A stretch of DNA of 39,103 nucleotides. It comes from a virus. Every line of letters begins with the position of its first letter. Within the stretch, counting starts at the first letter, position 1. The notes beneath the pieces are model-generated. The model worked only from the letters and a program-made list of their open reading frames with translations. It was not told where the DNA came from and made no database searches. Both the position numbers and the translations under genes were made by a program. The stretch lies in IMG/VR virus record IMGVR_UViG_3300042371_000328, positions 1 to 39,103 of that record. One strand, given 5' to 3'. This document shows, piece by piece, positions 6,333 to 35,685 of the stretch.

Positions 6333-6772
6333 GATACACGTACCTCGAATGTTATGTTGTCTTTGATTGTTTCGCTAACAAGTTCTTCAAGCAGAGATCT
6401 ATCAAGGTTAGAACTGATACGATCTTCCCAATCGATTTGATCATCGTAGTCAGTGATATCAAATTCATCTGCCATATATTGATCAATAGCTGTACTGATA
6501 CGTTCATTTACGATTTCTTCAACACGTACTGCAAGGACATCATCAAGGTATTTAGTAACAACAGATTCGATAGATGTGAACTTGTCTGGGTGATACACAT
6601 TATCAATTTGTTTTGCAATTGTGTTAATCATACAACGAACAGCTACGTCAACTCCTGCACGTTCACTGTTTGAGATACCTGCCATTACACTGTTTAGGTA
6701 TGAGAAAGATTCATCAAGGTTTTCATGTGTAGTAAACAGGTTACTACGATATTCACTTAAGGGATTTTGCAT
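6329..6772 (-). CDS. Hypothetical acidic helical protein, 147 aa
   Basis: An acidic protein, mostly helical, with a run of Asp/Glu near residues 103-117 (DEFDITDYDDQIDWEDR). No catalytic motif is seen. The high negative charge could mark a DNA mimic or a partner-binding protein, but nothing specific supports that. It sits in the operon with an ATGA overlap downstream. Confidence 0.65.
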   Translation of the reverse strand: MQNPLSEYRSNLFTTHENLDESFSYLNSVMAGISNSERAGVDVAVRCMINTIAKQIDNVYHPDKFTSIESVVTKYLDDVLAVRVEEIVNERISTAIDQYMADEFDITDYDDQIDWEDRISSNLDRSLLEELVSETIKDNITFEVRVS

Positions 6773-8771: not shown

Positions 8772-9167
8772 ATGTCATCAGGTGGTAAAGCCCGTAACAT
8801 TAACTCACTGGCTAACCTGAAGTTAATAACCTCAGAGACAGCTAGAGAGAATCAGAAAAAAGCTACTCAATCAAGAATGTTGAATAAGCAGATCAGAGAA
8901 GAGTTTAAGTTGAATGCTAAGAACTTTCAAGAAGTAATGAAAGACTTACCTCAATTATCTTCACTTGATGTTCTTAGAATGGCTATGCATCAGGCCCTTC
9001 AACAAGATAACTTTGAAGATGCTGCTAGGTATGCTAACATGGTAGCAGAGTATGAACAACCTAAACTACAGAGGATTGATCAGACTACTACAACCCGTAC
9101 AGCAGACCTCTCAGATGAAGAACTTCAGAGGATTATCTCAGAAGAAGGTCTAGATAGTAAGTCTTAA
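8772..9167 (+). CDS. terS: Small terminase subunit (probable)
   Basis: A 131-residue protein that probably recognises phage DNA for packaging. The N-terminus is basic. A helical core (SSLDVLRMAMHQALQQDNFE) is followed by the tail AEYEQPKLQRIDQTTTTRTA and DLSDEELQRIISEEG, an arrangement typical of small terminases, where YExPKLxR precedes an acidic C-terminus that binds the large subunit. It has a good AAGGAG site. Unusually it lies about 3.8 kb from the large terminase, with opposite-strand genes between, as a single-gene unit with its own promoter motif and terminator. No direct DNA-binding motif was checked. Confidence 0.75.
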   Translation: MSSGGKARNINSLANLKLITSETARENQKKATQSRMLNKQIREEFKLNAKNFQEVMKDLPQLSSLDVLRMAMHQALQQDNFEDAARYANMVAEYEQPKLQRIDQTTTTRTADLSDEELQRIISEEGLDSKS

Positions 9168-9219
9168 GAGAATGTCATAAGAGAATGTCTTACAAGTAAG
9201 TCTATAAGAGAATGTCTTT
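9166..9219 (+). repeat. Tandem 13-14-base repeats at the small terminase stop codon
   Basis: AAGAGAATGTC occurs exactly at 9166, 9179 and 9206, each followed by A/T-T. A degenerate unit (ACAAGTAAGTCTAT) fills 9192-9205. The first copy overlaps the terminase stop codon, and the last forms the left arm of the terminator. Confidence 0.85.
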
Positions 9220-9260
9220 AGGTATATTACCTATTGATGTTCTCTTTTTTATTTCTCTTT
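9206..9260 (+). terminator. Intrinsic terminator of the small terminase transcript
   Basis: The left arm starting AAGAGAATGTC pairs with GATGTTCTCTT (11 pairs, two G-U). A two-base internal loop follows, then TAGGTA pairs with TACCTA around a 3-base loop. TTTTTTATTTCTCTTT follows. On the opposite strand no U-run follows, so it should act only on plus-strand transcripts. Confidence 0.88.
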
Positions 9261-19062: not shown

Positions 19063-19908
19063 ATGAATCTACCACATCTCTCTACCAGCACTCCAGCTTC
19101 TGAAATCAGTAGCCAGAGTTTTGATGACGGATCGAATAGTGCAGACTTGGAAGTGAAGAGCCTTGATGACATTCTACGTAATTCTCCAGCAGCAGAACTG
19201 TTGGGACTTAAAGAATCTCTACCAGAAGAAGGCGATGGCGTCCCAAGTCCAGACGAAGTATCGGAAGAAGAAGCCCAAGAAGAGAACGATACCGAGTCTG
19301 AAAATGACCTAGATGAAGAAGAAGAATCGAATGATTCAGAAGAAGATAATACAGTTGAGGATGATACGTCTACCCAAGATACTGACTTGCCTTCTGAAGA
19401 TGATATCGATTGGGAATACAAAGTACCCGTCACAGTTGACGGTAAGACTGAATATGTTACCCTAGAAGAAATCCGTAAGGGTTATTCTACTGATCAACAT
19501 CTATCTCAAAAGGGGCGTGAACTAGGCGAACTGAAGAAACAGATCGACCAAGAACGAACAGAAAAGTTACAAGAAATTATTCAATTAGGTACAGTCATTA
19601 ATGATGAACTTACTGCAGTTGAATCTAATCTTGCACAACAATATCATAAAGTCAGAGGCGAAATTGAAAAAGCCCGAGAAGAAGGTGATTCCTACACAGC
19701 TAGGGAACTCAAAGAGCAACTTGAAGAAGTACAGGAAAAGTATTGGAATGCACGTAATAAACGTGAACAACAAACTAAAGCTGTAGTTGAAAAGATTCAA
19801 GCTCAACAAATAGAACAACAACAAGTGTTACTGAGACAGTATGAGGAAAACATTGTTAACCTCATTCCTGACTATTCAGAAAAAGTTGCTAAGAATATTC
19901 AGGAATGA
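19063..19908 (+). CDS. Scaffold protein, N-terminal reading frame (frame broken at TGA 19906)
   Basis: Residues 1-281 of a scaffold-like protein. The first 110 residues are very acidic (DLDEEEESNDSEEDNTVEDD); then comes DIDWEYKVPVTVDGKTEYVT plus LEEIRKGYSTDQHLSQKGRE, a segment I associate with phage scaffolds, and a long coiled coil. The frame ends at NLIPDYSEKVAKNIQE with TGA. The expected continuation, EVNNIREFAIKEGIPEQLLE, lies in the +1 frame, so one extra T between GAA and GAG at 19905-19907 accounts for the break. The gene just precedes the major capsid gene, as scaffolds do. Confidence 0.75.
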   Translation: MNLPHLSTSTPASEISSQSFDDGSNSADLEVKSLDDILRNSPAAELLGLKESLPEEGDGVPSPDEVSEEEAQEENDTESENDLDEEEESNDSEEDNTVEDDTSTQDTDLPSEDDIDWEYKVPVTVDGKTEYVTLEEIRKGYSTDQHLSQKGRELGELKKQIDQERTEKLQEIIQLGTVINDELTAVESNLAQQYHKVRGEIEKAREEGDSYTARELKEQLEEVQEKYWNARNKREQQTKAVVEKIQAQQIEQQQVLLRQYEENIVNLIPDYSEKVAKNIQE

Positions 19909-20221
19909 GGTTAACAATATTCGTGAGTTCGCTATTAAAGAAGGTATCCCTGAACAACTACTAGAAGCGGTCTATGACCCTAACGTAGTTAAGTTCATCA
20001 ATGATTATCGTAAACTTAAAACTGCTAAAGAAACTGGTGAAGCAAAACGAAAGGCATCTCCGAACGTGAAATCGATACCCTCAAAGAAGGGAACTTCGAG
20101 TTCTCAAAAAGAGAAGCAAGCAGTTAGCAACAACCGAGCTAAAGTTCTAACAGGTCAAGGGTCTAAACAAGACGAATTAGATTTTCTAAAACGTATTTCT
20201 TCAGTGAGCAAAAAACTTTAA
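19841..20221 (+). CDS. Scaffold protein, C-terminal part in the +1 frame
   Basis: The reading frame is open from ATG 19841, but only from about 19907 does it read as scaffold: EVNNIREFAIKEGIPEQLLE, then AVYDPNVVKFINDYRKLK, and a basic, Ser/Lys-rich tail ending KQDELDFLKRISSVSKKL. The part before 19907 (MRKTLLTSFLTIQKK) is a shadow of the other frame. The basic C-terminus with a final helix is the part of scaffolds that contacts capsid. Real expression needs a frameshift or a sequence with one T fewer. It could also be a genuine second gene, but with no ribosome site that is unlikely. Confidence 0.6.
   Translation: MRKTLLTSFLTIQKKLLRIFRNEVNNIREFAIKEGIPEQLLEAVYDPNVVKFINDYRKLKTAKETGEAKRKASPNVKSIPSKKGTSSSQKEKQAVSNNRAKVLTGQGSKQDELDFLKRISSVSKKL
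19852..19918. repeat. 20-bp perfect inverted repeat at the scaffold frame break
   Basis: Arms 19852-19871 (ATTGTTAACCTCATTCCTGA) and 19899-19918 are exact reverse complements. After one mismatch, 19873-19877 pairs with 19893-19897, leaving a 15-base loop. The right arm contains the extra T and the stop codon TGA at 19906-19908. Confidence 0.9.
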
Positions 20222-20246: not shown

Positions 20247-21362
20247 ATGGCTGGACAAACATTCCAAACAGGTGGCCCTAAAGCTGCCGCTCGTAGCTCT
20301 GCCGCTACGGGTAACGCTGTCAACGCTGGTGAGCGTGAAGACTTAGCGAATTTTATTTCAATGATCTCTCGTGATGAGACACCTTTCTTGTCGTCTATCG
20401 GCAAGACTAAGGCTACGGCTGTGTTTCACGAATGGCAAACAGACGAGTTGGCAGCACCAACTTCTGCTCCTGTAGCCGAGGGTGTATCATATTCTACACA
20501 AAATGCGGCTCAAGCTGCTGAACCCTTCCGTACACGTTTGGGTAATTACACACAAATCAACTCCAAGACTGTTACAGTTACTGGCACTAAGCGTGCTGTT
20601 GACCAAGCAGGTGTTGCTGATGAATACGCATACCAGCTCAAAAAGCGTGGTACCGAACTTCGCAGGGATGTTGAGTTTGACTTGACTAACGGTTGGAAGT
20701 CTTCTAACGGCTCTGGCACTCGTACTTTTGGTGGCTATCAGTCTTGGATTAACTACACTGCTGCTAGCACAACTCCTGCTACTGCATTGAACGTGTTGGC
20801 TACTCCCGGTGAGTATACTGCTCCTACTAATCCAGGTGGCGGTGTTTGCGGTACATTTACTACTGTTACTTCTGCTGACAAGGTCTCTTTGGCTTTGTCA
20901 CACGTTGACACAGTTATGCAAGGTATCTACGAAAACGGTGGTAAGGCTACTAAGCTAATGCTGTCTCCCGCAAATCGTCGTGTGTTCTCTGCTAAGGCTC
21001 AGTCTGCAGGTTCTACTACTTCTAATGCTGGTGATGGTAACGTCAGACGTAACATTGACGCTGATGGTAAACTCCGTCAGTCAGTTGAAATCTACATGTC
21101 TGACTTCGGTGACATCATGGTTGTTCCTAACTACGTAATGGGTATTTCTAATACTGCCGTTTCTGGTCTGGATAACACAGCTAACTTTACAGCATTCGTA
21201 TATGACCCAATGTGGTTCAGCTACGCTAGCTTGCGTCCTCTGCAAGAAGTTGACCTCGGTCAGCTGGGTGACTCTATCATCGGTCAGATCGTTGAAGAGG
21301 GTACACTTGAGTGTAGGAATCCAAAAGGTTGCGGAATGATTTTCGGTCTGTCGGGTGCCTAA
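20247..21362 (+). CDS. Major capsid protein (SU10/DUF5309-like)
   Basis: A 371-residue head protein of HK97 fold type. The N-terminal part, REDLANFISMISRDETPFLS then SIGKTKATAVFHEWQTDELA, is the typical start of this family. A conserved core near FDLTNGWKSSNGSGTRTFGG and the C-terminal FSYASLRPLQEVDLGQLGDS fit too. An AAAAGGAAAA ribosome site precedes the ATG. Capsid genes are normally highly expressed; a strong terminator follows. The composition is more GC-rich than the surrounding genes, as highly expressed phage genes often are. Confidence 0.93.
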   Translation: MAGQTFQTGGPKAAARSSAATGNAVNAGEREDLANFISMISRDETPFLSSIGKTKATAVFHEWQTDELAAPTSAPVAEGVSYSTQNAAQAAEPFRTRLGNYTQINSKTVTVTGTKRAVDQAGVADEYAYQLKKRGTELRRDVEFDLTNGWKSSNGSGTRTFGGYQSWINYTAASTTPATALNVLATPGEYTAPTNPGGGVCGTFTTVTSADKVSLALSHVDTVMQGIYENGGKATKLMLSPANRRVFSAKAQSAGSTTSNAGDGNVRRNIDADGKLRQSVEIYMSDFGDIMVVPNYVMGISNTAVSGLDNTANFTAFVYDPMWFSYASLRPLQEVDLGQLGDSIIGQIVEEGTLECRNPKGCGMIFGLSGA

Positions 21363-21418
21363 TTTAGGTAGGGTAAGCTGATCACTTACTCTTGAGGAGC
21401 AATAACCTCAACAACCTT

Positions 21419-21456
21419 AAAAAGGGGGTATGACAAGTTCATATCCCCTTTTTTTT
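21419..21456 (+). terminator. Intrinsic terminator after the major capsid gene
   Basis: AAAAAGGGGGTATG pairs with CATATCCCCTTTTT around the loop ACAAGTT, then more T follows. A small hairpin (TTGAGG / CCTCAA, 21392-21411) lies just upstream. This would end or reduce the head-gene transcript. Confidence 0.88.
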
Positions 21457-21471
21457 ATTGATAAGGAATTT

Positions 21472-21855
21472 ATGGAAACAAAAACTTGTAGGACTTGTAA
21501 TCAAGTCAAATCAGTATCAGAATTTTCTGTACTAACAAAAATTAAAAAAAGTGGTATCAAATACAATTGTGATTGTAAAGAATGTAGGTCTATTTTTCGA
21601 AAAGAAAAATCTAGGAATTTAAAAGCTGAAGCTATTGCTTATAAAGGCGGCAAATGTAATGATTGTTTATCAATAGTACACCAAGCTGCATTTGAATTTC
21701 ATCATACAGACCCTTCTACAAAAGCAGATAAAGATCCTACTCATTTCCTACGGGATACTATTTCTCTAAATGAAAAAGCTAAACAAGAACTTGATAAATG
21801 TGTTTTACTATGTGCTAATTGTCATAGGATCAGACACTTTTCAGACCTAATATAA
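21472..21855 (+). CDS. HNH endonuclease (possible mobile homing element)
   Basis: A 127-residue protein with C6-x2-C9, C35-x2-C38, C62-x2-C65, a FEFHHTD motif (H77-H78) and C110-x3-C114-x2-C117-H118 (DKCVLLCANCHRIRH). That is an HNH fold with zinc fingers, as in group-I-intron-less homing endonucleases. I start it at the ATG at 21472, which has an AAGGA site and lies past the terminator; an open frame to 21430 would begin inside it. It sits between the capsid gene and small head genes, and is AT-rich compared with the capsid gene, so it may be an insertion. Confidence 0.82.
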   Translation: METKTCRTCNQVKSVSEFSVLTKIKKSGIKYNCDCKECRSIFRKEKSRNLKAEAIAYKGGKCNDCLSIVHQAAFEFHHTDPSTKADKDPTHFLRDTISLNEKAKQELDKCVLLCANCHRIRHFSDLI

Positions 21856-21865: not shown

Positions 21866-22153
21866 ATGGAATTTTTACGAATTACTGCGACAAACGGTAC
21901 TCGAACATATATTCCTGATAATTACGTGGTTAATGTTAGTACATCTGCTGATACTCTGGACGCTGGTTCAGACTATAGAGCACCTAATGTTATTCGTGGA
22001 AAAATTACTCAGGTAAAATATTATGATGGTGCTAACACTACTGCGGGAGCTATTGTTGTTGCGACTGTTACAGCTTTCGACGGCTCTAACACAAAATATG
22101 AATACGGTTGTTTTACCATTGACGGTGCTTTTAGTGCCGCAATGACTAACTAA
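21866..22153 (+). CDS. Putative head protein, 95 aa
   Basis: A beta-rich protein (MEFLRITATNGTRTYIPDNY) with many Thr and Asp. It lies two genes after the major capsid gene, where decoration or head-completion proteins sit. No domain was recognised. An AAAGGAA site precedes the start. Confidence 0.6.
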   Translation: MEFLRITATNGTRTYIPDNYVVNVSTSADTLDAGSDYRAPNVIRGKITQVKYYDGANTTAGAIVVATVTAFDGSNTKYEYGCFTIDGAFSAAMTN

Positions 22154-22158
22154 ATAGA

Positions 22159-22174
22159 GATAGCATTAGCTATC
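22159..22174 (+). other. Small hairpin between head genes
   Basis: GATAGC-ATTA-GCTATC, a perfect 6-bp stem in the 43-base gap before the next gene. It lacks a U-run, so it is not a clear terminator. Confidence 0.4.
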
Positions 22175-22196
22175 GCTAAACTATACAAGAGGACAC

Positions 22197-23464: not shown

Positions 23465-25807
23465 ATGGCATATAATACAACACCAGGAGCTACTACTGAT
23501 GCCTCAAAGGGTGGAGAATATGACAATACTGACGATACAAGTTCAGCAAGTTATGAAAACCTAGCGGCTACTCAAGCGGCTGCAGCTGCGGCAAGCGCTA
23601 CTGCGGCTGCAAGTTCAGCAACAGCTGCGGCTGGGTCTGCTGCTACTGCATCATCTGCGGCTACAACAGCGACTACCCAAGCAGGAATTGCTACAACACA
23701 GGCTACTAATGCCGCTACCAGTGCATCTGGTGCTTCTGCTAGTGCGTCTACGGCTACAACTCAAGCAGGAGTAGCTACTGCTCAGGCGGTAATTGCTACG
23801 ACACAGGCAACTAATGCGGCTACAAGCGCATCTACCGCAACAACTCAAGCAGGGATTGCTACTACGTCAGCTACTAATGCGGCCAGCAGTGCATCTTCTG
23901 CAACTGCATCTGCTACTACTGCAACTAATGCGGCAACAACTGCAACAACACAAGCATCTAATGCGGCTAATTCAGCATCATCTGCTTCTAATAGCGCTTC
24001 ATCAGCAAGTACTTCTGCAACTAATGCGGCTAACTCAGCTACGTCTGCTGGTACATCGGCTACAACAGCAACTACTCAAGCAGGTATTGCCACTACACAA
24101 GCAACTAATGCATCTACATATGCAACAAATTCAAGCAATAGTGCGTCTGCAAGTGCAACATCCGCAAGTAATGCCGCTACAAGCGCATCTACTGCTACCA
24201 CACAAGCAGGTATAGCAACAACACAAGCTACTAATGCTGCTGCAAGCGCAACAGCTGCGGCTGCTTCTTATGATTCATTTGATGATCGTTATCTTGGTGC
24301 TAAAGCTAGTGATCCAACTTTAGATAACGATGGTAATGCTCTGATAACAGGAGCAATGTATTTTAATTCAACCAGTAGTATCATGAAGGTATATACTGGT
24401 TCAGCATGGATGAACACTCCTGGATTTGCTACAGGCGGTACAACAGGACAAGTTCTTGCTAAGTTAAGTAGTACTAATTATGATACACAGTGGGTAAGTC
24501 TTACTGGTGGTCTTATATATGGCGGTACATGGAACGCATCTACTAACACACCAACACTTGCTTCAGGTGTAGGTACTCAAGGAACATACTATGTAGTATC
24601 TGTTTCAGGTAGTACTAATCTTGATGGTGTAACTGACTGGGTCATTGGTGACTGGGCTATTTATAACGGTACAACATGGCAAAAAATTGACCAGACTAAT
24701 TTAGTTACTTCTGTAGCTGGTCGTACAGGTGCAATTACTTTGTCTAATACAGATATTTCTGGTTTAGGTACTGCATCTACTCAAAATAGTACAGCATTTG
24801 CTACTGCCGCACAGGGTACATTAGCAGACACAGCAATACAAACATTAACATCTGTTGACGGTAGTGTTGTTATTAGTCCTACAGGAACTACAAGAGACCT
24901 TAGTGTAGGTACTGCGCTTAATACTGCCACATTAATTAGTCAAGTACGTAATGAGACTGGTGCAACACTTACTAAAGGTACTGTTGTATATATTAGTGGT
25001 GCATCAGGTAACAAAGCTCTTGTATCTAAAGCATTAGCTACAGGTGATGCTACTTCAGCACAAACCTATGGTATGATTCAGGCAGATATTACCAACAACA
25101 ATAACGGTTATGTAGTTGTTATTGGAGTTGTAAGTAATTTAAATACATCTGCTTTTTCTGATGGTGCTCAACTATATCTTAGCGGAGTTACTGCTGGTAC
25201 ATATACTAATGTTAAACCTTATGCACCTATTCATTTAGTGTATGTGGGTATTGTTACACGTAGTCATGCTACTCAAGGTACTATTGAAGTTAAGATTCAA
25301 AACGGTTATGAAATGGATGAGCTACATAATGTGTCTGCTCAATCACCTAGTAATGGTGACACTCTTGTATACAATACATCAACAAGTTTATGGACTAAAA
25401 CAGCACAATCTGCTTTAACAGTAGGTAATGTATCAGGCACAGTAGCTATTGCTAATGGTGGTACAGGGCAAACAACTGCTAATACTGCATTCAATGCTCT
25501 TGCACCTAGTCAAACAAGTAATGCTAATAAGTATCTTAAATCAGACGGTACAAATACATCATGGGCTACAGTAGACGCACTACCATCACAAACAGGTAAT
25601 GCTAATAAGTATTTAAAGACAGATGGCACAACAGCAACATGGGAAACCGTAGTTACTGGTGGTGGACCAATTACACAGAACGCAGATTCTGTATCAACTA
25701 ATCAAACTATTGCGGCTGGCTCTAACGGATTTTCTGTTGGACCCATGACTATTCAGAGTGGATACTCTGTGAACATAGCTAGTGGACAACGCTGGGTTGT
25801 TATTTAA
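23465..25807 (+). CDS. Tail fibre with Ala/Ser/Thr coiled-coil repeats
   Basis: A 780-residue fibre. Residues 30-265 are a low-complexity region built of A, S, T, N and Q, with repeated units such as TTQAGIATTQATNAATSAS, probably a trimeric stalk. Then YDSFDDRYLGAKASDPTLDN, with AMYFNST and MKVYTGSAW blocks, marks a domain common in phage fibres. The C-terminal half is beta-rich, with IANGGTGQTTANTAFNAL and two YLK-x-DGT-x-x-x-W units. It binds or scaffolds host receptor contact. It lacks a self-cleaving C-terminal domain, so another fibre must provide the tip. Confidence 0.82.
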   Translation: MAYNTTPGATTDASKGGEYDNTDDTSSASYENLAATQAAAAAASATAAASSATAAAGSAATASSAATTATTQAGIATTQATNAATSASGASASASTATTQAGVATAQAVIATTQATNAATSASTATTQAGIATTSATNAASSASSATASATTATNAATTATTQASNAANSASSASNSASSASTSATNAANSATSAGTSATTATTQAGIATTQATNASTYATNSSNSASASATSASNAATSASTATTQAGIATTQATNAAASATAAAASYDSFDDRYLGAKASDPTLDNDGNALITGAMYFNSTSSIMKVYTGSAWMNTPGFATGGTTGQVLAKLSSTNYDTQWVSLTGGLIYGGTWNASTNTPTLASGVGTQGTYYVVSVSGSTNLDGVTDWVIGDWAIYNGTTWQKIDQTNLVTSVAGRTGAITLSNTDISGLGTASTQNSTAFATAAQGTLADTAIQTLTSVDGSVVISPTGTTRDLSVGTALNTATLISQVRNETGATLTKGTVVYISGASGNKALVSKALATGDATSAQTYGMIQADITNNNNGYVVVIGVVSNLNTSAFSDGAQLYLSGVTAGTYTNVKPYAPIHLVYVGIVTRSHATQGTIEVKIQNGYEMDELHNVSAQSPSNGDTLVYNTSTSLWTKTAQSALTVGNVSGTVAIANGGTGQTTANTAFNALAPSQTSNANKYLKSDGTNTSWATVDALPSQTGNANKYLKTDGTTATWETVVTGGGPITQNADSVSTNQTIAAGSNGFSVGPMTIQSGYSVNIASGQRWVVI

Positions 25808-25816
25808 GGAGAAAAT

Positions 25817-27415
25817 ATGAGTTCTATATCTTCAGGAACAACCACAACAACTGGTTACGTTGTTAGCTCGGATACAACGGGTGCGTTAGTTTTAAAGACA
25901 GGGTCATCGGCTACTACTGCGGTTACTATTGATACGAGTCAGAATGTAGGGATTGGTACGGGTTCACCTACAACTAAACTTCATATTGCAGATAATGGTG
26001 ACACTGCATTAACAATTCAATCAACTACAGGTTCTGGGCAATCCCCCTCTATTAGGTTGCAACGTGGAACTTATGGCACTGATGGGTTTAACGACATTCG
26101 CATTTACAACACTACTGGTGGTTTATATGTTGACAACATTAATTCAGCAAATGAAGCTACAAACATATTTGTCGGAACACCAACAGGTCTAGGTATTGGT
26201 ACAAGTTCGCCATCAGCAAAATTACAATCAGAAGTAAGTGGTTCAACTGCTCAATTAAAACTTACTCAAACAAGTTATGCTTCATATAATTTTAAAGTAA
26301 ATACAGATTCATCTCTTACGATTGATAAAGATGGAGCGACTAGGCTTACAGTTGATACGTCAGGCAACGTAGGTATTGGTACGAGTTCGCCAGCCGCAAA
26401 ATTCAACGTAGTTGGCGGCAATTCAATATTCAGCAACACAACTTCAGAAGCAGGTTTTAACTCTACTGGCTCAAATAGATATTCTTTGATTTACGCATCT
26501 AGTACAGGCGGCACTATGTATGCGGGTGTCAATGGAACTTCAGCAGGAGCAGAGATTGATGTTGGTGGAATCTTGGCTAATGCTAGTTTCTTTGGAGCAA
26601 GAACAAACCATGCAACGCAATTTTTAACTAACAATACTGTTAGGGCTACTATTGATAACTCTGGTAATTTTGGTATTGGTACAGCTACGCCTAGAGGAAA
26701 GCTAGATGTAAATGGAACTTTACTTGTTGCTGGCGGTAGTCAAATACAGATTACTGGAAGTGTGAGTTCTACTGGTTTGCAATTAATTGGTCAAGATGCC
26801 GCAGAATCAATAGTTGGCACACTTAGTTCACAACCTCTGGTTCTTAGAACTGCTAGTGCAGAACGAGCCAGAATAGACTCTAGCGGTAACTTGCTGGTGG
26901 CAAGAACAACAACTGCAAACACTACTGTTGGTTCTGGTCTATATTCAAGCGGTTTAATTGCAGCGTGTCGTTCAGAATCAACTAATGGCGCTACAAATTT
27001 TGACCTTTATTCAACAGGTGCTGGTGCATATCGTTTTTATGTTGGAATGGGTGGAACGGTTTACGCAACAAGCACAACCATAAGTTCAATTTCAGACCAA
27101 CGATTAAAAGAAAACATCCGCGATTTGGATGAAGGTCTTGCAACTGTAATGGCTTTAAAGCCTCGCAAATTTGATTGGAAAGAAGGTAAAGGTCAGAATA
27201 TTAAAAACGCCCGTGGCTTTATTGCTCAAGAGTTTGAAACAGTATTGCCTGACATGATTGAAACTTGGCGTGACCCTGCACCAGAAGGTGAAGAAGCATA
27301 TAAAGCAATTAATGCTAATTTGATTCCCACTTTGGTCAAAGCTATTCAAGAACAACAAGTATTAATCCAGCAACTACAAGCTGACGTAGCAATCCTGAAA
27401 GGAGTTCAACAATGA
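25817..27415 (+). CDS. Tail fibre with C-terminal self-cleaving S74 chaperone domain
   Basis: A 532-residue receptor-binding protein. The middle carries NVGIGTxSP-x-x-KL repeats typical of beta fibres, and an ERARIDSSGNLL segment shared with the next gene. The C-terminal 110 residues are a peptidase S74 (endosialidase-type) intramolecular chaperone, with the catalytic serine at S426 in SDQRLKENI, then KPRKFDWKEG, GFIAQEFE and a coiled-coil end. It trimerises the fibre and then cleaves itself just before that serine. Its start has a GGAG site, and the end overlaps the next fibre gene by 4 bases. Confidence 0.88.
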   Translation: MSSISSGTTTTTGYVVSSDTTGALVLKTGSSATTAVTIDTSQNVGIGTGSPTTKLHIADNGDTALTIQSTTGSGQSPSIRLQRGTYGTDGFNDIRIYNTTGGLYVDNINSANEATNIFVGTPTGLGIGTSSPSAKLQSEVSGSTAQLKLTQTSYASYNFKVNTDSSLTIDKDGATRLTVDTSGNVGIGTSSPAAKFNVVGGNSIFSNTTSEAGFNSTGSNRYSLIYASSTGGTMYAGVNGTSAGAEIDVGGILANASFFGARTNHATQFLTNNTVRATIDNSGNFGIGTATPRGKLDVNGTLLVAGGSQIQITGSVSSTGLQLIGQDAAESIVGTLSSQPLVLRTASAERARIDSSGNLLVARTTTANTTVGSGLYSSGLIAACRSESTNGATNFDLYSTGAGAYRFYVGMGGTVYATSTTISSISDQRLKENIRDLDEGLATVMALKPRKFDWKEGKGQNIKNARGFIAQEFETVLPDMIETWRDPAPEGEEAYKAINANLIPTLVKAIQEQQVLIQQLQADVAILKGVQQ

Positions 27416-29244
27416 GTATCATATTAGACGGTACAACGGGTATAACAACTCCTGACTTAATTGATTCTTCATTGACATCCGGTCGGGTTGTCTATGCGGG
27501 TGCTAACGGGAATCTGACGGGGTCTTCTGGTTTTACTTTTAACGGAACTTCATTAGGTGTTGGTTCATCATCTTATGGAGATGCAGGAACAATTAGCCTT
27601 TCTGTTGGTGTTGCTGGAACTACTTCGGGTGGTTTGCAACTGTGGGCTACTTCAGCTCAAGAACACTATATCCAATGGGGTGATTCAACATCTGGCTCTG
27701 CTACTTATGCGGGTGCAATTTCGTATGCTCATGCAAGCGACTTTATGCGTTTCTGGACTGCCTCAACAGAGCGTATGCGCCTCACTTCAACGGGGTTGGG
27801 TATTGGTACAAGCAGTCCCGCATCAATACTAGATATTTCAAGTCCGGCAGCCGTTTTAAGATTAGCTTCAACAACAGGCACAAACGCAGTTTATCAACGC
27901 ATTTCAAATGACGGAGGTCAACTTTATTTTGGAATTGATAATAGTGCAGGTAATGATTTAGCTGCTGGGTCTACTGCACACGCAGGTGTTTTAGTTGCTC
28001 CCGGAACAACTAGAAATTTGCATTTTGGCACTAACGGTACTGTTCGAACAACAATTACAAGCGCAGGTGATGTAAGTATTGGTACAACTTCGGGTGATAT
28101 TTTTTCAAACAGTTTTGCCCGAACCCTTAATGTGTTCTCTAGTGGTGTAGGTACTACTACTGCTATTAATGTTTCTGGTGGTGCGGCATCTCGTATTCAA
28201 TTTGGCATTGGATTTACACGATACGGTTTGATTTACCAAGACGATACTAATTTTATGCAGATTGCTACTACAACTGCATTGCCAATTTCATTTGTAACTA
28301 ACAATGCAGAACGAATGCGTCTTACAGCCGCAGGCAATCTAGGTATTGGTACAAGTTCTCCACAAAGTTTATTAGCTTTGAGAACAGGTGGTACATCATC
28401 TGTAAATGGTGGTGTAGGACTAACAATTTCACACGACTCAAATAGCATTGCCAATGGTACAGATTTAACATTTGCTGGAATTACAATTCAACGTGATAAG
28501 TCTTCTGCACTAGCAGATGGAGATTCACTTGGTGGAATTAACTGGGGTAAACTTATTGCAGGGGAATTAAGAAATTCTGTAGCTGCAATTGGAGCACTTC
28601 AGTCTGGTGCTGGTGAAAGCGCACATCTTACTTTTTACACTGCAGCTTCAAGTAGAGCGCCAGTAGAACGAGCCAGAATAGATTCTAGCGGTAATTTTAT
28701 AATGGGTCGTACAACAGTACCCACATGGAACGATTCAAATGGCTTTGGGTTTGCATTTGATAGAACATTTAAAACAACTTTTTTTGTTCAAGATAACTCT
28801 ACCTCGTATGCTTGCACATATTTTAATGCTACAAGTTATACGTCAGGAACTGCTTATTTTGCTCAGTTTCGAGTAAATGGCGCTACTGTAGGAGACATTA
28901 CTAGCAATGGGTCAAGCACATCCTATGTCACTTCATCCGACTACCGCCTAAAAAACACCATTGCCCCAATGACAGGCGCATTGGCTAAAGTGGCATTGCT
29001 TAAACCTTGCACTTACAAGTGGAATGTTAATGGCTCTGATGGTGAAGGTTTCATTGCTCACGAGTTGGCTGAAGTTTGTCCACAAGCGGTAACTGGTGAA
29101 AAGGATGCAGTAGATGCTGATGGAAATATTAAATCACAAGGTATTGACACATCATTCTTGGTGGCTACATTAACTGCGGCTATTCAAGAGCAACAAGCAA
29201 TTATTGAATCACTCAAGGCACGTCTCGATGCCGCTAATCTTTAA
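27412..29244 (+). CDS. Second tail fibre with S74 chaperone domain
   Basis: A 610-residue protein of the same build as the gene before it. The N-terminus differs (MSIILDGTTGITTPDLIDSS), followed by GIGTSSP repeats and the shared ERARIDSSGNF unit. The S74 domain has catalytic S509 in SSDYRLKNTIAP, then KPCTYKWNVNG, GFIAHELAE and a C-terminal coiled coil. The pair may form a fibre of two proteins or be alternative tips. The ATG overlaps the previous stop. The next gene is a small protein that may assist it. Confidence 0.88.
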   Translation: MSIILDGTTGITTPDLIDSSLTSGRVVYAGANGNLTGSSGFTFNGTSLGVGSSSYGDAGTISLSVGVAGTTSGGLQLWATSAQEHYIQWGDSTSGSATYAGAISYAHASDFMRFWTASTERMRLTSTGLGIGTSSPASILDISSPAAVLRLASTTGTNAVYQRISNDGGQLYFGIDNSAGNDLAAGSTAHAGVLVAPGTTRNLHFGTNGTVRTTITSAGDVSIGTTSGDIFSNSFARTLNVFSSGVGTTTAINVSGGAASRIQFGIGFTRYGLIYQDDTNFMQIATTTALPISFVTNNAERMRLTAAGNLGIGTSSPQSLLALRTGGTSSVNGGVGLTISHDSNSIANGTDLTFAGITIQRDKSSALADGDSLGGINWGKLIAGELRNSVAAIGALQSGAGESAHLTFYTAASSRAPVERARIDSSGNFIMGRTTVPTWNDSNGFGFAFDRTFKTTFFVQDNSTSYACTYFNATSYTSGTAYFAQFRVNGATVGDITSNGSSTSYVTSSDYRLKNTIAPMTGALAKVALLKPCTYKWNVNGSDGEGFIAHELAEVCPQAVTGEKDAVDADGNIKSQGIDTSFLVATLTAAIQEQQAIIESLKARLDAANL

Positions 29245-29253
29245 GGAATCAAC

Positions 29254-29547
29254 ATGATCACAACAACTTGGACAATCGAAACACTTGACCGTGAGACATC
29301 TAACGGCTTTGTAACAACAGCTCACTGGCGAGCAACTGCGGTAGACGGTGAATATACATCATCTATCTACTCAACATGCTCTTGGGCAGACGGTACCCCA
29401 GAAATCCCCTATGCTGATCTCACACAAGAGACAGTCCTAGGATGGGTCTGGGAGAATGGCGTTGATAAAGAAGCAACAGAAACAGCATTGGCTGCTAACA
29501 TTGAACTACAGAAAAACCCTGTAACAGCAACTGGTACGCCTTGGTAA
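29254..29547 (+). CDS. DUF7936-like small protein A, 97 aa
   Basis: A beta/alpha protein starting MITTTWTIETLDRETSNGFV and ending LAANIELQKNPVTATGTPW. The layout (W-T-I-E at start, AHWRATAVDGEYTSS, then PYADLTQETVLGWV) matches a small phage protein family that I recall as DUF7936, often next to tail fibres. A paralogue lies at 31373-31690. A fibre-assembly or virion-associated role is inferred from position. Confidence 0.72.
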   Translation: MITTTWTIETLDRETSNGFVTTAHWRATAVDGEYTSSIYSTCSWADGTPEIPYADLTQETVLGWVWENGVDKEATETALAANIELQKNPVTATGTPW

Positions 29548-29569
29548 TAAAACATATGGAGGAGTTTAA

Positions 29570-31372
29570 ATGGCTTCAATATTAAATGCCGATGATGGCG
29601 TAGTCAGCGGAAGTGCTGGCTTAAAAAGTAGTGCAGACTCCTCCGGTGTTTTGGCATTGCAGACTAATGGGACTACTGGTTTAAGTATCAGCACAGGACA
29701 AGTTGTTAGTGTTACTAACGGAATGTCTGTGCAAGGACTTACTGTGGGTAGGGGTGCGGGGGCTGTGTCTACTAATACTGCGGTGGGTGCTAGTGCTTTG
29801 GCGGCTAATACAACAGGTGCAGACAATACCGCTTTAGGACTTAATGCGCTAGCTAGCAACAACTCAGGCATCAATAACACCGCAAGTGGTCGTTTTGCAC
29901 TAACTTCCAACACTACAGGTGTCGGAAACACAGCAAGTGGATATAGTTCTCTTGCAACCAACATTGCAGGTAGCTACAACACCGCAAGTGGCGGACTTTC
30001 TCTCTACGCCAACACAGGTAGCAACAACACCGCCATAGGATATGATGCTCTTAATAACAACACAGCATCAAACAACACTGCTGTAGGTTATCAAGCGGGG
30101 TATGCAAATACAACTGGTGGATTTAATGTATTTCTTGGTAGGCTTTCTGGGAGGGCAAACACTACTGCTAATTACAACGTTGCTATTGGCGCTCCTGCTC
30201 TTTACCAAAATACAACTGGATCATCACTTGTTGCAATTGGCGATGGTGCGCTATACAACAATACGACAGGTAATTACAACACCACCATAGGTTCTGAATC
30301 TATGGTAAACAACACCACAGCATCAAGCAACACTGCTGTAGGTTATAAGGCGGGGTATAACAACGTAACTGGAGCAAACAATACTTATCTGGGAACCCAA
30401 GCGGGTAGAGATGCAACATCTAGCGCCAATGTGTTTGTTGGTAAAGATGCTGGCTTGACCGTAACAAGTGGTGGTGGGAATATTTATATTGGCCTTGGCG
30501 CAGGCTCTAATAATAGTGCGGGTACGGGTTCATCCAACACAGCGGTTGGCTATCTGTCGGGTAATAGACTAACAACTGGTGCAGGTAACACATTTTTAGG
30601 TTATGAAACTGGCACTAATGTTACAACAAGTAATGGACAAACATTTATTGGTCAAGGAGCAGGTTCATCAAAAACAACTGGTGGTAATAACACGTTTGTA
30701 GGAACGAGTGCTGGTGCGTCTGCAACAACAGGAACTGGCAACACGTTTATTGGTGTAAACGACTCAACAAATGGTTCTGGATTTGCCGTAACAACAGGCT
30801 CCAAGAACACCATTATTGGTGGCTACACAGGCAATCAAGGTAGCCTAGACATTCGCACAGCAAGCAACAACATTGTTTTGTCTGATGGTGATGGAAACCC
30901 ACGGGGTGTTTGTAATAGCAGTGGTGAGTGGAATTTCAATTCAATTTCCGGAAAAATTGTTTACCCAACAGGTTCTACTGGGTCAACCTCACTTACCGAC
31001 ACGGGTATTTACGCTAACACTTCTGTTTTTGGTTGGAATAACAAAAACGGCGCTATTTATGATGTGTATATCATTGGTTGCCCCAACGCTGCGGGTTCAG
31101 CGGCTTACATGAATTTGATTGTTGGATATGTGATAGTTGTAACTGGGTATCCCGGCTACGTTGGAAACCAGATTCGTTACGTTGAAACTGCAAATCAAAC
31201 AGGACAAGGAAATGCCGCTTTTACAATAAGCGTGGTATTTTGGAATGGAACATCAGAAGTAACAGACATTACCGCAGGCGATACAAATTATCAAATTCGC
31301 ATCAAAGTAACAGGATTTAACACTAGTCACGTTGGCTCAGGCCAACAGATTAACCTCACAAGGAGAATGTAA
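29570..31372 (+). CDS. Tail fibre with YadA/Hep_Hag-like repeats
   Basis: A 600-residue fibre whose residues 65-420 are units of 14-16 residues such as NTAVGYQAGYANTTG, with N-T-A-x-G at each start. This is the pattern of trimeric left-handed beta-roll heads in YadA-type adhesins. The C-terminal 130 residues, after ISGKIVYPTGSTGSTSLTDT, form a distinct beta domain, probably receptor contact or trimerisation. There is no S74 domain. A strong GGAGGAG site precedes the ATG. The stop is directly next to the GTG start of the next gene. Confidence 0.82.
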   Translation: MASILNADDGVVSGSAGLKSSADSSGVLALQTNGTTGLSISTGQVVSVTNGMSVQGLTVGRGAGAVSTNTAVGASALAANTTGADNTALGLNALASNNSGINNTASGRFALTSNTTGVGNTASGYSSLATNIAGSYNTASGGLSLYANTGSNNTAIGYDALNNNTASNNTAVGYQAGYANTTGGFNVFLGRLSGRANTTANYNVAIGAPALYQNTTGSSLVAIGDGALYNNTTGNYNTTIGSESMVNNTTASSNTAVGYKAGYNNVTGANNTYLGTQAGRDATSSANVFVGKDAGLTVTSGGGNIYIGLGAGSNNSAGTGSSNTAVGYLSGNRLTTGAGNTFLGYETGTNVTTSNGQTFIGQGAGSSKTTGGNNTFVGTSAGASATTGTGNTFIGVNDSTNGSGFAVTTGSKNTIIGGYTGNQGSLDIRTASNNIVLSDGDGNPRGVCNSSGEWNFNSISGKIVYPTGSTGSTSLTDTGIYANTSVFGWNNKNGAIYDVYIIGCPNAAGSAAYMNLIVGYVIVVTGYPGYVGNQIRYVETANQTGQGNAAFTISVVFWNGTSEVTDITAGDTNYQIRIKVTGFNTSHVGSGQQINLTRRM

Positions 31373-31690
31373 GTGACAGTCTATACATGGTCAATTCAAT
31401 CAATGCCCGCCTACCCGCAAGAGGCTGGTCAAACTGACGTTGTGTTTCAGGTCAACTGGCAATGCAATGCAAACGACAACGGCTACTCAGCCAATACGTT
31501 TGGCTCAGTCTCTGTAACTTACACAGCAGGTTCGCCCTTCACGCCTTATGCTGACATCACCCAAGAGCAAGCGTGGAGCTGGGTTGATCCGCAAATTAAC
31601 CGCCCTGCTATTGAATCCAATCTTCAGGCGATGATTGACGCTCAGAAGACCCCAACTGTTGTAACCCCACCCTTACCTTGGAGTAATTAA
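31373..31690 (+). CDS. DUF7936-like small protein B, 105 aa, GTG start
   Basis: A diverged paralogue of the 29254-29547 product: MTVYTWSIQSMPAYPQEAGQ, then VFQVNWQCNANDNGY, PYADITQEQAWSWVDPQINR and IDAQKTPTVVTPPLPWSN. The (P)YAD(L/I)TQE block, the helix and the Pro-Trp end match. The GTG follows the TAA of the previous gene with no gap, so translation is coupled. Composition is more GC-rich than the neighbouring genes, which hints at separate acquisition. Confidence 0.7.
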   Translation: MTVYTWSIQSMPAYPQEAGQTDVVFQVNWQCNANDNGYSANTFGSVSVTYTAGSPFTPYADITQEQAWSWVDPQINRPAIESNLQAMIDAQKTPTVVTPPLPWSN

Positions 31691-31912
31691 ATGACTATTG
31701 AATCCCAAACCCCAACCGCAGAGCAAATTGCCAAGCACTATAGTGCCGCAATGGATTCAGTAAACCTGATTAACGCAGGTAAGCCTGAACAAATGTCTAC
31801 TGAAGAGTGGACTAACTGTGTATCTCGTAACAAAGAACACTTAAAAATTATGATCGCTAAAGACTTCTGGACAACAGAAGATTTAGCACCATTACAACAA
31901 GCATCCGCTTAA
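31691..31912 (+). CDS. Small helical protein, 73 aa
   Basis: MTIESQTPTAEQIAKHYSAA and EEWTNCVSRNKEHLKIMIAK. It reads as a small conserved phage protein next to fibre and lysis genes. The start directly follows the previous stop. Function unknown. Confidence 0.68.
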   Translation: MTIESQTPTAEQIAKHYSAAMDSVNLINAGKPEQMSTEEWTNCVSRNKEHLKIMIAKDFWTTEDLAPLQQASA

Positions 31913-31932
31913 TTAACTAAAGGAAAATAATC

Positions 31933-32169
31933 ATGGGAAAAAATGAAAAGACCCCCGTAACTATTGATGGTATTGAATATAAGTTTGAAGATATGACTAC
32001 TCAGCAACAACTGTTGTTGAATCATGTAGCAGACTTAGACCGTAAACTTGAGTCAGCACGATTCAACGTTGATCAACTTCAAGTTGGTCGTGAAGCATTC
32101 TTTGGTTTGCTTAAAACAGAACTAGAAAAGAAACCTGACGACATTCAGGATGCCGTAATTAAGGAATAA
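31933..32169 (+). CDS. DUF6447-like small protein, 78 aa
   Basis: It starts with VTIDGIEYKFEDMT and a long helix (LLLNHVADLDRKLESARFNV). The VTIDG-x-EY-x-x-x-x-x-x plus coiled helix pattern is one I recall as DUF6447, of unknown role and common in aquatic phages. An AAAGGAAA site precedes the ATG. Confidence 0.72.
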   Translation: MGKNEKTPVTIDGIEYKFEDMTTQQQLLLNHVADLDRKLESARFNVDQLQVGREAFFGLLKTELEKKPDDIQDAVIKE

Positions 32170-32170
32170 A

Positions 32171-32413
32171 ATGCAAGAAACCACTCAAGATAATGAAGTA
32201 AGTCACAAACAAATATATGAACGACTTCTGGCAGTAGAAGTCAAAGTAGATAAACTAGATAAGAGTACAGAAGAAGTAGTTAAAGCTTTTAATGCTGCTC
32301 AAGGTGCATTCATTGTACTTGAGTGGGTTGCCAGAGCAGTTAAACCAATAATTATTGTTGGAGCTTTCTTTGGTGCTGTATGGTTAGTAATAGAAAACAA
32401 ATTGCATAAATAA
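32171..32413 (+). CDS. Small membrane protein, possible holin-class protein
   Basis: An 80-residue protein with an N-terminal helical coil (QIYERLLAVEVKVDKLDKST) and one C-terminal transmembrane helix (PIIIVGAFFGAVWLVI). It opens the lysis cassette. Similar proteins accompany holins and could be an antiholin or an accessory holin. No hallmark proves it. Its stop overlaps the next start by one base (TAATG). Confidence 0.6.
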   Translation: MQETTQDNEVSHKQIYERLLAVEVKVDKLDKSTEEVVKAFNAAQGAFIVLEWVARAVKPIIIVGAFFGAVWLVIENKLHK

Positions 32414-32556
32414 TGTTTGTTTCTGCTATCAGTTTAATTATAGCACTTAATCTGTCTATTAAAGAAGAATACAGATGTATTAGATGGTCTTGGTCAGGTG
32501 ATGTATACAATAGAAGAGTTGTTTGTTTAGAATGGAAAAGGAAAGATAAGAAATGA
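32413..32556 (+). CDS. Small lysis-cassette protein with two Cys, 47 aa
   Basis: MFVSAISLIIALNLSIKEEY, then RCIRWSWSGDVYNRRVVCLE and a basic end. The N-terminus is hydrophobic and the rest is exported-like with two cysteines. This pattern (EYRCIRW-x-WSGDVYNR-x-VVCLEW) recurs near phage lysis genes. It could be an o-spanin-like or membrane-tethered factor, but I cannot confirm that. It overlaps both neighbours (TAATG, ATGA). Confidence 0.6.
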   Translation: MFVSAISLIIALNLSIKEEYRCIRWSWSGDVYNRRVVCLEWKRKDKK

Positions 32557-33050
32557 TTGATCCTCTAACAGCCCTAGCGGGTATACAATCAGCAATTAAC
32601 ATGGTTAAGAAAGCTAGTAAAGTAGCTAATGACCTTGGTTCTCTTGCACCTATGATTGGCAAAATGTTTGATGCTAAAAGTGTAGCTACAAAAGCTATGC
32701 TTCAAGCTAAACAATCTGGTAAGGGTTCCAACATGGGAACTGCATTACAAATCGAAATGGCTCTTGACCAAGCTAAAGCCTTTGAAGAAGAGCTTAAAAT
32801 GCTGTTTATGCAGACAGGTAAAATTGATGTTTGGAATAAAATTAAAGCTAGACAAGCAGAAATGGATTTAGCTGATGCTAAAGAAATAAGTGCTTTAAAG
32901 AGAGCAGAAAAGAAAGCTAAAGAAAAAGAACAAGAGATGAATGAAATAGCCATGATTATTGGTGGTGTCTTTTTTGTTTTATTCTTGGTGTTTGTTGGTG
33001 TAAATGAGCTGGTTAACTTTTGTGCAACTACACACAGGTGTGGTAGATGA
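32553..33050 (+). CDS. Membrane protein with cytoplasmic coiled coil, 165 aa
   Basis: An Ala/Lys-rich helical N-terminal part (SAINMVKKASKVANDLGSLA) with coiled coil up to residue 130 (SALKRAEKKAKEKEQEMNEI), then one transmembrane helix (AMIIGGVFFVLFLVFVGVNE) and a short Cys-containing tail. Position and topology suggest an inner-membrane lysis component. A spanin-like form is possible, although a C-terminal anchor is opposite to the usual Rz layout. Confidence 0.65.
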   Translation: MIDPLTALAGIQSAINMVKKASKVANDLGSLAPMIGKMFDAKSVATKAMLQAKQSGKGSNMGTALQIEMALDQAKAFEEELKMLFMQTGKIDVWNKIKARQAEMDLADAKEISALKRAEKKAKEKEQEMNEIAMIIGGVFFVLFLVFVGVNELVNFCATTHRCGR

Positions 33051-33196
33051 ATGAGTATCAGAAGACATTTGATTTAGCCTTGAAGATATTTGTTTATGGC
33101 TGTGTAGCTTTGTACTTCTTAGGCTTCCTTAAGTTTCTCCCTGATGATCTTTCTAATAAGATTGTTTCTTTATTGTTAAGTAAAATAGGATTATAA
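33047..33196 (+). CDS. Small membrane protein, 49 aa
   Basis: MNEYQKTFDLALKIFVYGCV then ALYFLGFLKFLPDDL and a hydrophobic end. One clear transmembrane helix is present. It fills the gap between two lysis-cassette genes with an ATGA overlap at its start. Function unknown, possibly holin associated. Confidence 0.6.
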   Translation: MNEYQKTFDLALKIFVYGCVALYFLGFLKFLPDDLSNKIVSLLLSKIGL

Positions 33197-33199
33197 TAT

Positions 33200-33697
33200 A
33201 TGTTAGATATTTTAAGTGGTGGTATTTTAGGATCACTCTTTGGAGGTATTTTTAGGCTAGCCCCTGAAGTCCTCAAGTGGTTAGATAAAAAGAATGAGCG
33301 TTCACATGAGCTTAATATGTTTAAGTTTCAATGTGACTTAGAAGCTCAACGTGGTCAACAGAAATTAGCTGAGATTGGTGCTCAACGTGAAGCCGCTATT
33401 GATGTTGGTGTTATGGGTGCTTTCCAGTCTGCTATTGAACAACAAACAGAAATGGTTAAGGCGGCAGGAGGCGGCTTTGTGGCTGCTCTATCAGCTTCAG
33501 TACGACCCGTAGTAACATATTGGATCTTGGCACTGTGGTCATTTGTTCATGTATGGTTAGCTTATAACTCATGGATTAACGGTATGCCTCCAGTAGAAGT
33601 ATTTAAGGTAATGATGTCAGCAGACTTTGCGGCTCTTGTCTCTGGTACTCTTAACTATTGGTTCCTTGATCGTACACTCAGCAAGCGTGGACTATGA
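33200..33697 (+). CDS. Holin, GTA-type three-helix family (probable)
   Basis: A 165-residue protein with a Gly-rich start (MLDILSGGILGSLFGGIFRL), a soluble helical part, then SVRPVVTYWILALWSFVHVW and a terminal helix with SGTLNYWFLDRTLSK. The RPVVTYW motif and final NYWFxDRT match the GTA_holin_3TM family (PF11351). It would open the inner membrane for the lysozyme, encoded right after with an ATGA overlap. The first hydrophobic segment may serve as the third helix. Confidence 0.8.
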   Translation: MLDILSGGILGSLFGGIFRLAPEVLKWLDKKNERSHELNMFKFQCDLEAQRGQQKLAEIGAQREAAIDVGVMGAFQSAIEQQTEMVKAAGGGFVAALSASVRPVVTYWILALWSFVHVWLAYNSWINGMPPVEVFKVMMSADFAALVSGTLNYWFLDRTLSKRGL

Positions 33698-34140
33698 ACT
33701 TAACTATAGCCGCAGACTTGTGTAAACATTTTGAAGGCTTTAGTTCTAAGCCTTACATGTGTCCTGCTAATGTAGCTACTATAGGTTACGGCAGTACATA
33801 CTATGCTGACGGTAGGAAAGTAACGCTTCAGGATCCTCCTATGAGTGAGCCTGAGGCTTATGATCTTCTACTCAAAGAATTACATCATACCTATTTACCC
33901 GGAACACTTAGGTATTGTCCTGTACTAGCTACAGATGAAAAGAAATTAAATGCTATTGTTGACTTCTGTTACAACTTAGGTGTAGGTAGACTACAGACAA
34001 GTACATTAAGACGAAAGATTAATGAACAAGACTGGGAAGCCGCTAAGGTAGAGTTAATGAAATGGAATAAAGGTGGAGGTAAAGTGTTAGCTGGTCTTAA
34101 CAAAAGACGCAAGGCTGAATGCGCTTTACTTGGTACCTAA
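33694..34140 (+). CDS. Lysozyme (endolysin), GH24, with Cys in place of catalytic Asp
   Basis: A 148-residue T4-type muramidase. The catalytic region reads E14 (HFEGF), C23 (PYMCPANV) and T29 (ATIGYGS). The E-to-C gap of 9 and C-to-T gap of 6 equal those of T4 lysozyme E11, D20 and T26, so the middle residue is Cys where T4 has Asp. A T4 D20C variant is known to be active, and many phage lysozymes share the YxCPAxV pattern, so activity is expected. NAIVDFCYNLGVGRLQTSTL is the conserved helix. No signal peptide is present, so export needs the holin. Confidence 0.92.
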   Translation: MNLTIAADLCKHFEGFSSKPYMCPANVATIGYGSTYYADGRKVTLQDPPMSEPEAYDLLLKELHHTYLPGTLRYCPVLATDEKKLNAIVDFCYNLGVGRLQTSTLRRKINEQDWEAAKVELMKWNKGGGKVLAGLNKRRKAECALLGT

Positions 34141-34144
34141 TAGT
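34127..34144 (+). promoter_or_regulatory. Promoter-like motif P5 (plus strand)
   Basis: TACTTGGTACCTAATAGT: 15 of 18 match the consensus. It overlaps the last codons and the stop of the lysozyme gene and ends 17 bases before the next ATG, which has an AAGGA site. It would drive the nozzle, tip and ejection genes. Confidence 0.6.
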
Positions 34145-34161
34145 AATAAAAAGGATATCTC

Positions 34162-35685
34162 ATGGCAACACCAATTACAGACCTAGGCAAGGGAGGTCTC
34201 AACACAGACTTATCACCCTTGATTGTTCCTCCTAACGTTTTCTCAGATGTACTCAATGTTCGTTTTGACGACAATGCAGTACAAACAATTACGGGTGAAG
34301 GAGCATACAGGACTGTGGCTATTACCCCTGACTATGGTATTCACTGGAAAAGACCAGACCAAGGCTATAATATCTTTGCTAAGAATGGAGCTATTGTTCG
34401 AGTAGATGCGGCAGGGAATTCATCTAATATGTTTTCCTCTGCTGATGTACTGTACAACAATAGCGACTGGCAAGGTACTCTTTTTAACGGTGGATTTGCT
34501 GTTGTAGTAAACAACGGTCAGACAACTCCACTATATTGTTTATATGGTAGTGCTTCAGCAGGATCTACCTTTCAACCTTTACCTAATTGGAATTACTTAG
34601 CTGGTCTTACAGTAACCGCTAAAGTAATCCGTTCACTTAACTATTCTCTTGTTGCGGCTAACCTTACGTTAACCGAGAGTGGCATTGTAACATATGCCCC
34701 AGGAACTGTACGTGTTTCTGTTCAGGCTCCTACAGGTAACATCCCACAAGTATGGGCACCCGGAGTTACAACAGACACAGCAGATGAGTTTGAGTTAAGC
34801 TCAACATCACAAGTACTTGATATGCTTGACCTACGTGGTAGCATGTTTATTTATTCTGAAGATAGTATTAATATATTGTCTATTGGTAATGTAACTAAAG
34901 TAACTCCATACTCAAAGTCTTATGGTATTCTTAATACAGATTGTGTATGTGAGTTTGATGGTAGTCACTTTGTAGTAGACCGTAATGATATATATGTTCA
35001 TAACGGTTCAGGTAGTATTGAGTCTATTGCTGACTTCCGTATTAAAAAGTATTTTTTTAGTAACCTTAATAAGAGTTACACTAACAAAGTTCATGTTGTA
35101 CGTAATCCTTTCTATAAAGAAATCTGGATTAACTATCCTAAGGGAAATGCAACAACTTGTACTGAAGCTCTTATATTTAATTATAAAAATAATACATGGA
35201 CAAAAAGAACATTAGCTAATGTTACTTATACATTTAATGCTCCACAAAATGTAAGTAATACTTTTAATTATGCTAAACAAGAGTTGTTGTTTACAACTAA
35301 CTCAACACAAACATTAATTACAAATGATGCTTATCTTATGTACAATGGTACAACATTTGTAGCGTATGATTCTTATGTATCTAAAAAGATTAATACAGGC
35401 GATTTAACTGGCAGTTCTATTATTAACTCTATATACCCTATATTTGATAAAGTATCTGGTTCAGCTAGTATTAGTATTAAAGTACTTGGTCAGAATAATT
35501 ATATAGATAATCCTACATATACGTCTGCTGATGTATTTACATTTCTTCCTAACAATCAAAAGTCTCAAGGCTATAAAGTAGATCCTCGAGTTAATGGTCG
35601 TGTAATGAATTTATATATTACATCAACAGACTATTGGAGACTTCCTACTCTTGCATTTGATGTACGACCAGCTGATCGGAGGTAA
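34162..35685 (+). CDS. Tail nozzle-like structural protein
   Basis: A 507-residue beta-rich protein starting MATPITDLGKGGLNTDLSPL, with many short repeats of Asn/Thr strands and no helix-rich part. The order (adaptor, fibres, lysis, then this) and the MATPITDLGKGGLNTD start recall nozzle or tail-tube-like proteins of short-tailed phages (gp10 in P22, T7 gp12). Segments such as SDWQGTLFNGGFAVVVNNGQ look like beta-propeller blades. A precise family cannot be named from sequence here. Confidence 0.65.
   Translation: MATPITDLGKGGLNTDLSPLIVPPNVFSDVLNVRFDDNAVQTITGEGAYRTVAITPDYGIHWKRPDQGYNIFAKNGAIVRVDAAGNSSNMFSSADVLYNNSDWQGTLFNGGFAVVVNNGQTTPLYCLYGSASAGSTFQPLPNWNYLAGLTVTAKVIRSLNYSLVAANLTLTESGIVTYAPGTVRVSVQAPTGNIPQVWAPGVTTDTADEFELSSTSQVLDMLDLRGSMFIYSEDSINILSIGNVTKVTPYSKSYGILNTDCVCEFDGSHFVVDRNDIYVHNGSGSIESIADFRIKKYFFSNLNKSYTNKVHVVRNPFYKEIWINYPKGNATTCTEALIFNYKNNTWTKRTLANVTYTFNAPQNVSNTFNYAKQELLFTTNSTQTLITNDAYLMYNGTTFVAYDSYVSKKINTGDLTGSSIINSIYPIFDKVSGSASISIKVLGQNNYIDNPTYTSADVFTFLPNNQKSQGYKVDPRVNGRVMNLYITSTDYWRLPTLAFDVRPADRR

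Follow-up and report, generated by a model that had tools for sequence, protein, structure and literature searches.

A 22-nucleotide inverted copy of neighbouring sequence splits the scaffold gene of a phage contig

The head scaffold gene of a 39.1-kb virus record (IMG/VR IMGVR_UViG_3300042371_000328; the whole stretch, positions 1 to 39,103, is referred to here as the window) is interrupted by 22 nucleotides that were copied in reverse from sequence close by. We hold with high confidence that one short-range fold-back template switch inserted them. Natural and in-vitro settings for this switch are both sub-cases of the same explanation, and they are weighed below.

The split scaffold gene

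The gene was identified by profile and by position, as it lies between a portal gene (PHROG 1216) upstream and a capsid gene downstream. Its parts and its neighbour are:

19063..19908, + strand: 5' portion of the scaffold gene, with 281 codons ahead of TGA (PHROG 3927, head scaffolding protein, E 3.8e-07)
19906..19908, + strand: TGA stop created by the insertion (from the sequence and the open reading frame list)
19919..20221, + strand: 3' portion severed by the stop, read in the +1 frame, with the conserved C-terminus DELDFLKRISSVSKKL
20247..21362, + strand: next gene downstream, encoding the major capsid protein (PHROG 1328, major head protein, E 6.5e-76)

A preliminary description of this DNA reported that the scaffold frame stops at TGA 19906 and continues in the +1 frame. 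Both statements were confirmed, with an open reading frame at 19063-19908 and the remainder extending up to 20221. The proteins of relatives align with the window product through residue 281 and continue thereafter in the other frame, in which their residues 278-378 match positions 19916-20218 at 97-99%. Compared with relatives, no gene of the window other than the scaffold is clearly split; the remaining stop-containing matches are read by us as probable antisense or alternative-frame open reading frames or differences in start position. General error-prone assembly was considered and rejected, as no other gene in 39 kb is clearly split.

By its capsid protein, the nearest named phage is Roseobacter phage CRP-7 (53%). 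Related contigs of 59-62 kb, one with a portal-gene match at each end, suggest a genome near 60 kb.

A long inverted repeat absent from related phages

The break lies within an inverted repeat with the following features:

19852-19871, + strand: left arm; ancestral sequence, template of the copied block, present in relatives
19899-19918, + strand: right arm; newly arisen, the left arm's exact reverse complement
19901..19922, + strand: 22-nt insertion AGGAATGAGGTTAACAATATTC, placed by alignment to relatives

The two arms are perfect 20-nt complements with 27 nt between them. Past one mismatch there are five further inner pairs, which gives a full inverted repeat of 29 nt (93%) with a 15-nt loop; a direct check of the sequence bore out what had been described earlier for both the arms and the inner pairs. 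As single-stranded DNA, the window site folds at -22.7 kcal/mol (z -8.70), and none of 200 shuffles was equally good. The inverted repeat is far beyond chance. In a census of 303 related loci (3.5 Mb, 1.93 million distinct 31-mers), it was the only perfect inverted repeat whose arms exceed 14 nt and whose loop is no longer than 120 nt.

Relatives were collected by scanning IMG/VR with the N-terminal part of the scaffold, which returned 49 related loci, and the site was readable in 46 of these. The entire right arm is absent from all 46. Furthermore, the scaffold is intact, with 373-384 codons, in every one of the 42 relatives that could be read to the stop codon. An exact 80-nt ancestor of the site is common to seven contigs, and the ancestral state is known from these relatives independently of the window. 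Typical relatives read GTTGCTAAGAATATTC-GTGAGTTCGC, while the window reads GTTGCTAAGAATATTC-AGGAATGAGGTTAACAATATTC-GTGAGTTCGC. The inserted block is the reverse complement of the left arm, some 30 bases upstream. Placements of the insertion down to 19894-19915 are equivalent, because the motif AATATTC (19894-19900 and 19916-19922) flanks it on both sides. The insertion is known from one assembled consensus sequence. A homopolymer error was dismissed as its source, a difference of 22 nt being far too long.

These comparisons change how the frame break is to be read. The preliminary description had attributed it to a single additional T, and this was mistaken: relatives lack all 22 nt, and one extra T appears to explain the shift because 22 mod 3 = 1, so that removal of the T resets the frame by arithmetic only. 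The same description had proposed quasipalindrome correction, in which an existing near-perfect hairpin gains one T by a template switch. The perfect repeat in the window and the fact that one base would change the frame both speak for such a correction. However, the right arm occurs in none of the 46 relatives, and the inferred ancestral strand folds at only -6.4 kcal/mol (z -0.92), no better than its own shuffles. The inverted repeat was created rather than corrected, because the ancestor had no strong hairpin. The earlier proposal is strongly supported in so far as it invokes a polymerase that switches template at an inverted repeat, while correction of a one-base flaw in a hairpin is very improbable.

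A programmed +1 shift at GAA-TGA had also been put forward. A related idea is a working split gene, in which a 126-codon open reading frame from ATG 19841 to 20221, covering the severed end in frame, supplies the C-terminal part. That this frame spans the severed end is in favour of the split gene, but the arrangement is found in one contig only, and all relatives read to the stop codon keep a single uninterrupted frame; nothing therefore shows selection for the split form. The proposed shift site itself lies inside the insertion and is absent from every relative, where a programmed frameshift would have a conserved one, and the proposal found no support. Frameshifting or a working split gene is thus given very little credence. 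The same holds for a natural allele in which the phage would live with a two-piece scaffold, made of the 281-residue N-terminal protein and a separately initiated fragment from ATG 19841, a reading that we consider highly doubtful. If it were true, a single template switch would have split a virion-assembly gene in one step.

Least probable of all is that the insertion is a small mobile palindromic element of the kind that occupies intergenic gaps in these phages. Relatives do differ in which short hairpin cassettes they have, but the insert is unlike them in sequence and is an exact copy of its own neighbour.

A probable fold-back template switch

The four-point model of template switching reproduces the window from the ancestor with zero mismatches. 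The descendant is made up of three ancestral fragments, running from the left flank to point 1, in reverse from point 2 to point 3, and from point 4 to the right flank, with point 1 at 19898-19900, point 2 at 19871-19869, point 3 at 19855-19852 and point 4 at 19894-19897. One further feature is needed to describe the joints:

19870..19877, + strand: GACTATTC, which pairs at 7 of 8 positions with GAATATTC at 19893-19900 and is present in the ancestor

The first joint is a 2-nt match inside this complementarity between GACTATTC and GAATATTC, and the second is a 3-nt match (AAT). This complementarity, already there in the ancestor, probably gave the switch its foothold. That the assembler joined two fold-back reads, each with a single junction, was judged unlikely, because the two joints have only 2-3 nt in common.

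What is shown is that 22 nt were inserted and that they are a copy; the strand, the polymerase and the setting we infer. In the proposed sequence of events, a growing strand ending in GAATATTC (at about 19898-19900) would fold back onto GACTATTC (19870-19877), with seven of eight bases paired, the final two among them. It would then copy about 18 nt of left-arm sequence backwards, from 19869 to 19852, after which it would return to its template through the 3-nt match (AAT) at 19894-19897 and synthesis would go on. Equally, the other strand could have switched to the opposite parental strand, a route that would give the same product. Short-range switches of both kinds, by fold-back and by a jump to the other parental strand, have been described with this signature (PMC7954356; PMC8794818). 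The product carries a perfect inverted repeat that was not there before, and the scaffold frame shifts by +1, stops early and loses the conserved C-terminus.

The copied insert is exceptional for this phage group. Among 349 insertion signatures of 8-80 nt, drawn from 37.7 Mb of alignments between related loci, the longest exact inverted match to the neighbourhood was 20 nt, in the window, versus 12 nt for the next best and at most 9 nt for nearly all. An inverted copy of 20 nt, against 12 nt, is better than chance for insertions in the same phage group.

Consequences for the scaffold protein

About 97 residues are lost through the break, among them the final 18, which form the most strongly conserved block in the family (mean conservation 0.96). 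The C-terminus of phage scaffold proteins often binds the capsid protein, and the split allele is therefore expected, very probably, to be null.

Codon differences between the severed part and its counterparts in relatives are mostly synonymous, with synonymous to nonsynonymous counts of 11:3, 7:1, 3:1 and 9:2; the corresponding figures for the N-terminal part each include one false nonsynonymous difference at the flank join, and those for the C-terminal part are unaffected. The severed part was therefore under selection until very recently. Since it shows purifying selection, the break either is very recent or arose in vitro and never passed through selection. The split allele is very probably recent.

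Origin of the insertion

Two settings for the template switch account for nearly all of the probability, and we lean slightly towards an in-vitro product over a natural allele, with a small remainder left for other readings. In the in-vitro setting, given somewhat better than even chances, the switch would have occurred during whole-genome amplification, PCR or end repair, and would have become fixed in the consensus as few molecules covered the spot. The natural setting is a serious possibility of somewhat less than even probability. Here the phage's own replisome would have switched in vivo, and genomes with a split scaffold would have been abundant enough in the sample to determine the consensus, perhaps sustained by co-infection with intact phages.

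The form of the event fits the natural setting well, as two junctions and a return to the template are predicted by replication-fork models (PMC7954356). In contrast, the known fold-back artefacts of amplification and library preparation are mostly single-junction, without return to the template (PMC1855051; PMC10908179), whereas in the window the original template is resumed after 22 nt, unlike in a simple artefact. The window also encodes a DNA polymerase matching PHROG 17 and a Gp2.5-like single-stranded DNA annealing protein, resembling those of T7, and the T7 replisome switches at short inverted repeats in vitro (PMC9484634). That all other genes are intact fits a fresh mutation.

The distribution of the allele and its expected effect weigh against a natural origin. 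Loss of the C-terminus should be lethal without complementation, and the allele should therefore not dominate a population. Moreover, when the junction was sought in IMG/VR, no other contig had it within a scan that may have excluded the window's own or a very near record; a shared natural allele was rejected on this result. No other inverted templated insertion longer than 12 nt was present among relatives. An allele that is frame-breaking, unique and recent is as expected for something never seen by selection, which is in keeping with the in-vitro setting.

Chimeras of the fold-back type, joined at short complementary stretches, are known to be frequent in amplified or sheared DNA, both in multiple displacement amplification (PMC1855051) and in library preparation (PMC10908179). 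An example was encountered in the related material. Contig IMGVR_UViG_3300034082_001592 (6540-6598) has a single-junction fold-back at its end, with 14-nt arms and a 31-nt loop; its last 11-14 nt match, in reverse complement, a stretch 31 nt upstream, and this end looks like a chimeric read. As the contig ends in a fold-back of similar size, fold-back chimeras do occur in such data. A one-molecule artefact is nonetheless at odds with the fact that an assembler normally drops rare variants, unless coverage was thin or few molecules were amplified.

Other repeats and candidate mobile genes

Several features elsewhere in the window and in its relatives were recorded. Palindromic cassettes of some 26-30 bp, with the approximate form TAGRGWTAGC-nnTA-GCTAWC-GCTAAnCTA, make up an intergenic family found in the window at 22150-22186 and in related loci at L052:19706, L246:221, L254:4683, L256:11845, L261:2440, L266:3095 and 8475, L282:12129, L287:131 and L296:3978. 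The stems co-vary (GATAGC/GCTATC, GTTAGC/GCTAAC and AATAGC/GCTATT). Every good instance falls between genes, in several cases immediately ahead of a start codon, and close relatives differ in whether they carry some of them. Such a cassette might serve as a terminator or promoter hairpin, or might be a tiny mobile element. Such a small intergenic palindromic element with co-varying stems is possibly a more interesting lead than the insertion itself.

Short repeated units, AGTAAGTCT and AAGAGAATGTC, make up a tract at 9151-9220 whose length varies among relatives. Right after the major capsid gene lies an HNH endonuclease gene (21430-21855; PHROG 2255, E 9.7e-29), in which about 60 bp show 83-91% DNA identity to HNH genes of Escherichia/Salmonella phages, including Felixounavirus. 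For several relatives, alignment to the window is interrupted from about 21363 to 21854, and the HNH gene may therefore be a mobile homing gene. Further downstream, a long series of tail-fibre-like genes (23465-37257) displays many length differences among relatives, and two of these genes (25817-27415 and 27412-29244) contain S74 chaperone domains.

Comparison with known template switches

The type of mutation is already known; the window holds a cleanly solved case of it, of natural or in-vitro origin. Its value lies in the independently known ancestor, from which one polymerase slip would have produced a long perfect hairpin where none existed. It also illustrates how a sequence read without its relatives can make a 22-base event look like a single extra base. 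In metagenome contigs, perfect inverted repeats that break a frame should be checked against relatives and reads before a pseudogene, a frameshift or a regulatory hairpin is called.

The first quasipalindrome mutations to be recognised came from phage T4 and yeast (Ripley 1982; T4 rIIB and yeast CYC1), as cited in PMC7202029. In that class, as in the window, a polymerase builds one arm of an inverted repeat by copying the other. It differs in that an existing imperfect repeat is corrected, whereas the ancestor of the window had a 7-of-8-nt match only and the arm is new. Fold-back chimeras (PMC1855051; PMC10908179) resemble the window event in that a 3' end primes on a nearby complement and copies backwards, with short joints. 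Most of them contain a single junction, without resumption of the original template, in contrast to the two junctions about 20 nt apart in the window. In form the event matches the four-point short-range template switch of Loytynoja and Goldman (PMC7954356), although the window case is a phage contig, with one assembled sequence and a possible in-vivo origin. In both, an exact reverse-complement copy of neighbouring sequence is laid down between two switch points and yields a perfect inverted repeat, the joints are short matches, and point 4 lies before point 1, as in many of the reported events.
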